Source: Sphingomonadales bacterium
GTDB lineage: Bacteria; Pseudomonadota; Alphaproteobacteria; Sphingomonadales; Sphingomonadaceae
Assembly (NCBI GenBank): GCA_009995225.1
Contig: JAACPW010000004.1
Span: forward strand, 140,605-204,604
DNA: 64,000 nt
Reading direction: 5' to 3'
Part shown: positions 3,146 to 64,000 of the stretch, piece by piece
How the letters are laid out: every line of letters begins with the position of its first letter
Position numbering within the stretch: the stretch's first letter is position 1
Program-made: the position numbers and the translations under genes
Notes under the pieces: generated by a model
Databases searched by the model: none
What the model was told of the DNA's origin: nothing
Seen by the model: the letters and a program-made list of their open reading frames with translations, nothing else

Positions 3146-3386
3146 GGGATGTTCCTTTCCGTTGTCGGGAAGGAATTACCGCTTGCGCCGCGCCGCTGCC
3201 TTGACAGTGATCAAATTGGCTGGCCGAGAGCCGGTTTCCTACCTGCGCCCGGTGTGGCAGGCGGTGGGTCATGAACCCGATGCCCGTGCGCTGTGCGGTG
3301 CGCTGGGCCGTGCGCTGTGATAGCCTTTCAGGCACTGTCAGGATGGAGCGAGCGGCGGGAGAGGTTTTGCGTTTCTGGACAGTGTC

Positions 3387-60965: not shown

Positions 60966-63332
60966 TCAGGCGCGGCGCTGGTGCATCATGCGGAACAGGC
61001 CACGGGCATCGTCGGCAGGCATCGGCCGGCCAAAATAGAACCCCTGGATCTTGTCGCAGCCCAGATTGCGGATCAGTTCCGCTTCCTCCGCAGTCTCGAC
61101 CCCTTCTGCGGTGGTCGTCATGTTCAGGCTCTGGGCCATCGCCACGACGGCGTTGATGATGGCAAGACTTTCGGCGCTGTTCTGGGCTGCGCCTTGCACA
61201 AAGGTCCGATCGACCTTGATCGTCGAAAAACGTAGCTTGCGTAAGTAACCAAGCGACGAATAGCCGGTGCCAAAATCATCCAGCGCCACCGAACAGCCAA
61301 GCGCCATGACCTGTTCAAGCGCGTTACGCGCCACGCTGGCATCCCGCAAGAAGATGCTTTCCGTGACTTCGATCTCAAGCCGTTCGGGATTGAGCCCAGT
61401 AGCCGCCAGCGTTCGGAGCACATCAGCGTGGAAATCGGGTTCAAGCAATTGTTCGGGAGACACGTTGACATTGACCTTCACGTGTTCCGGCCAATGGCGC
61501 GCTTCTTCGCACGCCTTGCGCATAACCCATTGTCCGATCGGAATGATCAAGCGGGTGTCTTCGGCCAGAGGAATGAATTTGCCCGGTGAGACAAACCCAT
61601 GTTCCGCACTGTTCCATCGCACCAGTGCTTCAAAGCTGACCACGCTTTCACTGCGGGCATCAACCACCGGTTGATAATGCAACACCAGCTCATCGCGCCC
61701 CAACGCCATGCGCAAGGATGCCTCCAGCGAGCGCCGTTCTTCCGCGATGGCATGAAGTTCAGGCTCGAAACGGCGATGCTCGCCTCCGCCATCATCCTTG
61801 GCCTGATACAGCGCCAGGTCGGCGTTGCGCATCAATTCTTCAACGGTGGTGCCATCGCGCGGACCTACGGCAGAACCAACACTGGCCCCCACATACAGCG
61901 TGTGGTGATCAACCTGATAAGGCTCGGACAAGCGGTCGATCACGTGCTGGGCCAGGTTCCGGATGCAACCCGGCGTGCTGGCGTCGCGGATGACGATGGC
62001 GAATTCGTCGCCGCCCAGCCGTCCGACCATTTGGTTTTCGCCCATCAGCGATTGCAGCCGGGCCGATACCTGCCCCAGAAGCTTGTCACCCGTCATGTGA
62101 CCAAGCGAATCATTGACCGCCTTGAACCGGTCCAGATCGACCATCAGTAGCGCACAGCGCGTGCGCCATTGGACGGCGTAGCGCAGCGCCTCCCCCAGAT
62201 CCTCGGTCAGGTGCAGGCGGTTGGGCAGTTGGGTCAGTGTGTCATAGCGCGCGAGATAGGCGATCTTCTCCGACGAATTGCGCTGTTCGGTTACGTCAGA
62301 ACCCACGCCGCGAAAGCCGGTGAACCGCCCCTGATCATCGCGCATCGGCGCGCCGGAGATTTCCCACCAGCGCTCCTCACCCAGGATCTGAACCTGCACC
62401 AGCATCGTCGAAAAGTTCTCGCGGTTCTTCAGCCGCTCAGCCAGATCGTGGAGGCTGGGGGGAAATTGCCCCGTCGCCCAGTTGCGGCCTGAGATCATCT
62501 CAAGCAACGGCTTGCCCTCGACATCGGCTTGCGCGCGGCCAAGCGCAAAGGCGAAGCGCGGTGAGACCGAACGCAGCCGCCGGGCGGGGTCTACCTCCCA
62601 CAGCCAATCAGCCTCGTTTTCCTCGAACTCGCGCAGCAACAAGGAAACCACAGCGTCCTTCTCGATCACGGCGGCCTCTGCCAGACGCGCCTTCACAAAG
62701 GTCGATCGCACCTGGATTGTGGCGACGAGACTGGCGATGGTGAACAAGATCACGCCGCAGGCCGCAGGCCATTCGCCGTTGATCGCGAGTGAACCCGCCG
62801 CGCCCAGTCCGAGAATACCGAGATAGATCAGCACACTAAGCGGTGAAGTGGAGAAAACGAAGGTCGATGAGATCATCAACACCAGCACGACCAGCAGCAT
62901 CGTGAGCGCCTGCGCGCCATCGGCAAGCCACGGAAACACCATCAGTGCCGTGAGCCAGCAGACAGAACCGGCAATGGCGTTCAGGTTCTGCGTTCGCTCG
63001 ATGGCGGCGGGACCGGCGCGGTAGCCGGGATCGACCAGCAGCAAATCGGTTTGCCGGGATTTGTAGAGAATGAGCCCCAGCATGACGGCCCAAGGCGCGA
63101 TATATGCGAGGCCGATCAACGGCGCAAACACAGCTGCGACAAAGACCGCGACAATCGCATTGGCCAGCATCCGATTGCGGCTGGCCTGCGCCAATTCACT
63201 ATATTCGTCACCGCGCAACCGGGTGGGGTCAAATGCGGGATTGCGCGACAATCCGAGGATGTCGGACAACGGCAGCTCGGCCGTTAAAGTCGACGGCAAG
63301 GAAGCGGAATGTTTGACCACGCGGGCTGTCAT
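60966..63332 (-). CDS. Membrane-anchored PAS-GGDEF-EAL protein
   Basis: N-terminal TM helices; PAS-like region; RLGGDEFAIVIR; EALVRWNS; DDFGTGYSSLGYLRKL. Confidence 0.95.
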   Translation of the reverse strand: MTARVVKHSASLPSTLTAELPLSDILGLSRNPAFDPTRLRGDEYSELAQASRNRMLANAIVAVFVAAVFAPLIGLAYIAPWAVMLGLILYKSRQTDLLLVDPGYRAGPAAIERTQNLNAIAGSVCWLTALMVFPWLADGAQALTMLLVVLVLMISSTFVFSTSPLSVLIYLGILGLGAAGSLAINGEWPAACGVILFTIASLVATIQVRSTFVKARLAEAAVIEKDAVVSLLLREFEENEADWLWEVDPARRLRSVSPRFAFALGRAQADVEGKPLLEMISGRNWATGQFPPSLHDLAERLKNRENFSTMLVQVQILGEERWWEISGAPMRDDQGRFTGFRGVGSDVTEQRNSSEKIAYLARYDTLTQLPNRLHLTEDLGEALRYAVQWRTRCALLMVDLDRFKAVNDSLGHMTGDKLLGQVSARLQSLMGENQMVGRLGGDEFAIVIRDASTPGCIRNLAQHVIDRLSEPYQVDHHTLYVGASVGSAVGPRDGTTVEELMRNADLALYQAKDDGGGEHRRFEPELHAIAEERRSLEASLRMALGRDELVLHYQPVVDARSESVVSFEALVRWNSAEHGFVSPGKFIPLAEDTRLIIPIGQWVMRKACEEARHWPEHVKVNVNVSPEQLLEPDFHADVLRTLAATGLNPERLEIEVTESIFLRDASVARNALEQVMALGCSVALDDFGTGYSSLGYLRKLRFSTIKVDRTFVQGAAQNSAESLAIINAVVAMAQSLNMTTTAEGVETAEEAELIRNLGCDKIQGFYFGRPMPADDARGLFRMMHQRRA

Positions 63333-63601
63333 AAAAGCTAATGGTTAGGTTGCGGTAAAGGAACGGCGATGCGCGTCTGCCGATTTATGGCAAATGCCCC
63401 TCCTTGTCCCCTTCCAAAACAAATTTCCGGAGATGACCGCTCGCCCCCTCGGAAAGCGCAAGGGTTTGAAATCGATGAGTTACAATAAAACTTCCTCCAA
63501 GAGCATCTGAAGCTCCACTTCGCGGCTCCACAGCACACAAAACTCGATTTTCGTGAAAATAGAAAATTCCGCCAAAAACCGGCAATTCATCGATGAGCTT
63601 T

Positions 63602-63901
63602 CAGCATCACAGCGAGCAGCAGATGGTGAAGCGGCGGACTGGACCCTCCCCCCCAAAGCAAGCCCCCAATCCAGCGCTGACTGCACTGCCCATCGGTCTC
63701 AAGGCCATGCCAGATCCTGAGCGTGTCTCCCCAATAACGTGTCATCGCTTGAGCGACCTTGAGAAGATTGGCTTCGCCAACCTTGTTCAACATACCCGCG
63801 CGATCAAGCTCCTCGCGGTAATACGCCCTCCGGTCGTCAGGATGCACCTGCCTGGGATCATCGAGGAGGAGATCACTTGCTCGCGCCAACTCTTTGAGGT
63901 C
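63602..63901 (-). pseudogene. TnsD/TniQ-like fragment interrupted at its 5' side by an IS3-family element
   Basis: Open frame from the IS border: ...DLKELARASDLLLDDPRQVHPDDRRAYYREELDRAGMLNKVGEANLLKVAQAMTRYWGDTLRIWHGLETDGQCSQRWIGGLLWGGGSSPPLHHLLLAVML. The W...PLxHLLL segment with upstream YxxELxxxG resembles internal TnsD motifs. Confidence 0.5.
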
Positions 63902-64000
63902 TGAACCGCTCCGGGATTGTCGGAGGCTCCAACTCTTGAGTAGATGGAGTCCTTATGAGCAAGACAACGAACAAGTTTTCTCCGGAGGTTCGCGCCCGTG
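63902..64000 (+). mobile_element. Left end of an IS3-family insertion sequence (truncated by window edge)
   Basis: TGAACCGCTCCGGGATTGTCGGAGGCT terminal repeat-like sequence followed by an orfA start. Confidence 0.78.
63955..64000 (+). CDS. IS3-family transposase OrfA (5' end only)
   Basis: MSKTTNKFSPEVRAR..., typical IS3 OrfA N-terminus. Confidence 0.78.
   Translation, partial: MSKTTNKFSPEVRAR

Follow-up and report, generated by a model that had tools for sequence, protein, structure and literature searches.

The right-hand edge of a 64,000-nucleotide stretch of DNA from a Sphingomonadales bacterium (the window, analysed as a whole) carries a short open reading frame that runs into an insertion sequence (IS), and the question raised by this locus is what that frame is derived from and what lies beyond it. 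The original prediction regarded it as a piece of a TnsD/TniQ-like gene disrupted by an IS3-family element, and placed a transposition module, possibly with an unknown targeting system, to the right of the window. As described below, the frame most probably belongs to the relic of a decayed Tn7-like transposon that sits at attTn7, the classic insertion site of Tn7 behind the essential gene glmS, with its right end toward glmS, and has lost its core genes. The TnsD homology, the architecture of the ends, the position of the insertion and the empty sites of congeners are direct observations, and the features in the window are listed in Table 1.

Table 1. Features of the locus in the window.
Feature	Positions	Strand	Remarks
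GGDEF/EAL protein gene	60966..63332	minus	chromosomal flank outside the element; adjoins glmS in congeners
Putative 5-bp target-site duplication, CTCCT	63400..63404		copy on the glmS side, C11 3401-3405, is CTGCT in window orientation; 4/5 bases match
Tn7-like element left end	63405..63586		TGT at the terminus; three TnsB-site-like repeats, spaced, beginning at offsets 17, 84 and 159
tnsD fragment	63587..63901	minus	104 codons and stop; PF15978 positions 1-99/355; truncated at both ends
IS3-like insertion sequence, left terminus	63902..64000	plus	bears the inverted repeat and the start of the first transposase ORF; contig end

The tnsD Fragment and Its Relatives

The minus-strand frame (63590-63901) is open from the IS border at 63901/63902 to a stop codon at 63587-63589, much as had been predicted, and it carries YYREELDRAGMLNKVGEANLL...YWGDTLRIW...LHHLLLAVML. 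Its score against the Pfam profile of TnsD (PF15978) is 33.8-34.7 bits (E 1.3e-8 to 2.4e-8), which exceeds the Pfam curated cut-off of 32.4 bits, and the predicted identity is thus borne out by profile search. The part of the profile covered corresponds only to the middle of the protein, that is, the fragment starts past the TniQ-type N-terminal part and ends ahead of the C-terminal part, which in TnsD may recognize the attachment site (PMC10293859). The predicted loss of the N-terminal side, where the gene is cut by the IS, was found; the C-terminus, whose loss had not been predicted, is also missing on the window side, and there is no IS there.

The nearest relative in sequence is a TnsD relic of another genome (G057, 48% identity to the fragment), a pseudogene with in-frame stops at about 9600-10230 of contig C1, whose neighbours are a glpD-like gene and a probable tRNA gene. 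Among intact relatives, the closest found was the 423-aa TnsD of Pelagerythrobacter aerophilus (G316), another genome of the family, which is 31-33% identical to the fragment and shares with it the conserved positions YWG.TL / W / PP..H.L.L. In a two-sequence profile search of solved structures, only TnsD of Tn7 was matched (8glu, residues 192-292), and this match is weak by itself (E 0.59). The fragment is also short, so that the open frame could be supposed to resemble TnsD by mere chance, a supposition that is extremely improbable in view of the PF15978 score, the positions conserved with intact TnsD and the location of the frame within Tn7-type ends.

The first of two contig scans gave no relative of the fragment and the second gave only P. 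aerophilus, the class-level search added nothing, and a plasmid search with the fragment gave no match. The only addition of the order-level search (G436) is a short match that does not continue in a TnsD-like manner and was discounted as fortuitous. Among 114 genomes of the genus, TnsD matches occur only in the genome of the window and in G435; elements bearing TnsD are uncommon in the genus, and their kind is well known. The TnsD-matching frame of G435 (408 codons, near the end of contig C52) is situated at a different site, beside a comM-like gene; other relatives of Tn7 are known to target comM (PMC10293859). It might be supposed that the element stands for an alphaproteobacterial lineage of its own among the glmS-targeting Tn7-like transposons, one with a selector far from the known TnsDs and represented so far by relics only (in the genome of the window, G000, and in G057) with its intact members unsampled, but this is rather unlikely.

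The Insertion Sequence and the End of the Contig

The contig of the window (C9) ends exactly at base 64000, 99 bases into the IS, and the apparent accessory edge at this position is an assembly break, not a new module. Consequently, an intact transposition module directly to the right of the window was rejected. The IS has terminal inverted repeats, TGAACCGCTCCGGGATTGTCGGAGGC at the left and TGAACCGCCCCGGGATTGCCGGAGGC at the right. The left end, which starts at 63902, recurs at two other contig ends, namely where it closes C26 and near the start of C14, and matching right ends close C11 and C35, so that three left ends and two right ends were found in the genome. The IS itself was thus where it had been predicted, and its assignment to the IS3 family is suggested by a weak match of the first 57 codons of its first ORF, as far as they could be read, to NF033516 (E 0.034). 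There is one plasmid match to the IS, annotated as a transposase. IS elements, particularly those of the IS3 family, are found in about 30% of Tn7-like transposons (PMC8649781). Another copy of the same IS interrupts an aldo/keto reductase gene at 18460-18987 of C35, and the other IS-bounded contig ends that were read do not show the second half of this gene.

The glmS Locus

Sequence similarity to congeners extends across the GGDEF/EAL gene to about 63365. The gene beyond it in congeners is glmS, with its 3' end toward the GGDEF/EAL gene. Both genes are seen in the retrieved stretches of 12 congeners, and in these about 80-141 bp separate the GGDEF protein match from the stop codon of glmS. 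In a thirteenth congener, G417, an unrelated gene lies between the two (C14 3852-5298), and the glmS-GGDEF spacer therefore also takes insertions of other kinds. In the genome of the window, glmS is located on contig C11, which ends inside the right end of the matching IS; the order on C11 toward glmS is the IS right end, a truncated PifA-like ORF, a transposon right end and glmS. When window position 63404 is joined to C11 3400, leaving a single copy of the target, the resulting spacer aligns with the glmS-GGDEF spacers of the 12 congeners and is equal to them in length, and empty sites are thus present in congeners. We infer that C9 continues into C11 through a single copy of the IS. A 3-4 bp target duplication around the IS is absent, since the flanking bases are GTC on C9 and ATC on C11, which suggests deletion or recombination after the IS had inserted.

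The PifA-like ORF (C11 3575-4441, minus strand of C11) lies between the right end and the IS and is open to the IS border; PifA is a phage-exclusion protein of the KAP type. Its match to PifA of PADLOC is weak (27.7 bits, positions 461-656/720, the C-terminal part), and it has no match in Pfam, PHROGs or NCBIfam, nor in a plasmid search. Defence against mobile genetic elements is among the cargo enriched in Tn7-like transposons (PMC8649781).

The Transposon Ends

In Tn7, the TnsB sites are spaced at the left end and dense at the right end, and it is the right end that faces glmS. Insertions of Tn7 lie about 20 bp past glmS and duplicate 5 bp (PMC2918618), and Tn7 has three TnsB sites at the left and four at the right (PMC8649781). 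In the genome of the window, the right end TGTAGGCGAACAA begins at C11 3406, 23 bp past the glmS stop codon (3380-3382), and WNWNTTCC repeats start, counted inward, at offsets 17, 37, 68 and 169, that is, three close together and one apart. The same repeats are spaced at the other end, inward from the TGT at 63405 (Table 1), and the end with dense sites is the one at glmS. None of the repeats is in the opposite orientation, and a total of seven was reached by 0/2000 dinucleotide shuffles, a count which alone is no fair test because the pattern was picked after inspection. Judged from sequence, both ends appear to have a TGT terminus and inverted arrays of putative TnsB sites.

In an ungapped, anchored alignment with the outermost 25 bases of the glmS-side end, the end at 63405 is identical at 16/25, the best of the region, and a match of this quality was reached by 4e-5 of 120,000 placements. 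A gapped local alignment of the two ends is weakly significant (18/1000 shuffles), so the argument for the ends is carried by the ungapped anchored test and by a terminus search, both of which are independent of the repeat pattern picked after inspection. The terminus search was performed in 401 genomes of the family using a pattern with only the first site, and besides the genome of the window it gave a single match adjoining glmS, in G075, which belongs to a different genus of the same family. This right end is located 24 bp past the glmS stop, has its sites at 17/37/68 and is identical at 48/75 positions. At the locus (C3 3241-3350), no tns genes were recognized beside it, so that it is a solo end or a relic. 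Matches in G157, G281, G398, G337, G031, G094 and G290 are not beside glmS and do not have the spacing of the sites, and they were discarded.

Since a right end can persist alone, as in G075, and since tandem and nested elements are known at attTn7, two independent events might be imagined, one that left an unrelated scrap of tnsD by the GGDEF gene and another that left a Tn7-like right end at glmS. The two ends, however, are alike, face inward and have the spaced and dense asymmetry of Tn7, and their flanks join into a normal spacer, so that two events are very improbable. The predicted Tn7-like origin of the fragment is supported by the TnsD match, the Tn7-type ends and the position at glmS.

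Missing Transposition Genes

No tnsA, tnsB or tnsC is present at the site, and the element is therefore classed as a remnant and not as functional. The original prediction placed the N-terminal remainder of TnsD and a transposition module beyond the IS. Neither was found: the contig ends in the IS, no further PF15978 match occurs in the genome, and by synteny the sequence resumes on C11 with the features described above. A new targeting system to the right was likewise unsupported, as the genome's sole TniQ match (PF06527) and its sole strong TniB/TnsC match both lie in an unrelated element on C26.

The latter (C26 5016-11394) is a separate, apparently intact transposition gene set, in which the TnsA position is taken by an ORF of 318 aa; the set further contains a DDE-type transposase (754 aa), TniB (PF05621) and a TniQ protein (635 aa; PF06527), with a tyrosine-recombinase-like ORF after the TniQ gene. 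The 318-aa ORF and the transposase have no Pfam match. This tnsA/tniA/tniB/tniQ-type set was rejected as the source of the missing genes, because its TniQ is unrelated to the fragment by BLASTP and the set is inside its own contig.

It could be argued that most of the element still exists, and that tnsABC, the remainder of tnsD and cargo were left unassembled between two IS copies at the site. Both contigs end in the IS and the flanks form no duplication, so two copies with DNA between them are conceivable, and three left IS ends were found versus only two right ends. On the other hand, the assembly is rated 99.95% complete, the genome has no other TnsD, TniQ or strong TniB/TnsC apart from the C26 set, and the TnsD C-terminus is gone also on the window side, where no IS could hide it. 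A largely intact element is thus very improbable.

Comparison with Known Elements and Probable Course of Decay

The relic resembles Tn7 and the other glmS-targeting Tn7-like transposons, which have TnsABC and TnsD, in its position past the glmS stop with the right end toward glmS, in its TGTNGGCGNACAA-type terminus with spaced left and dense right TnsB-like arrays, and in holding a TnsD gene, an IS and cargo of a putative defence type inside. It differs from them in being without tnsABC and in having only the middle piece of tnsD; in addition, its right end adjoins the PifA-like remnant, not tnsA, and the target duplication matches at only 4/5 bases, and these last two features count against the relic reading, as do the lack of a duplication around the IS, the indirect link between C9 and C11 and the choice of the repeat pattern after inspection. 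The right-end relic of G075 has the same terminus and site spacing, and differs from the relic of the window in that only a right end is recognized. The P. aerophilus element (NZ_QXFK01000013-15) is similar in its TnsD, a protein which there has both TniQ and TnsD domains, but unlike the relic it is intact, with tnsA, tnsB and tnsC genes. In G316, the TnsD-bearing element (C2 1-11321) has tnsA and two consecutive tnsB-like/tnsC-like pairs, and its tnsD region is found again at several of the contig ends in G316.

The history of the relic may be reconstructed as follows. A Tn7-like transposon would have entered the spacer between glmS and the GGDEF/EAL gene at attTn7, which lies about 20 bp downstream of glmS. 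By analogy with Tn7, its TnsD, when intact, would have recruited TnsC and the TnsAB transposase after binding to the end of glmS, a route to which the position, the ends and the tnsD piece point. An IS-mediated deletion then probably removed the N-terminal part of tnsD together with tnsABC, and a separate deletion on the window side may have taken the tnsD C-terminus. What would remain is the left end, the middle piece of tnsD, the IS3-like copy, the C-terminal part of the PifA-like cargo gene and the right end. The relic lacks tnsABC as well as both the TniQ-type N-terminus and the C-terminus of TnsD, and for this reason it is unable to call a transposase and cannot move by itself.

The relic is what decay has left of a mobile element of a well-known kind, real but ordinary, and gives no sign of a new targeting system. 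It indicates that attTn7 behind glmS, with the Tn7 right end toward glmS, has been used in this alphaproteobacterial family, and it shows the course of decay of such an element, in which an IS inserts, the core genes are lost and the ends are kept.
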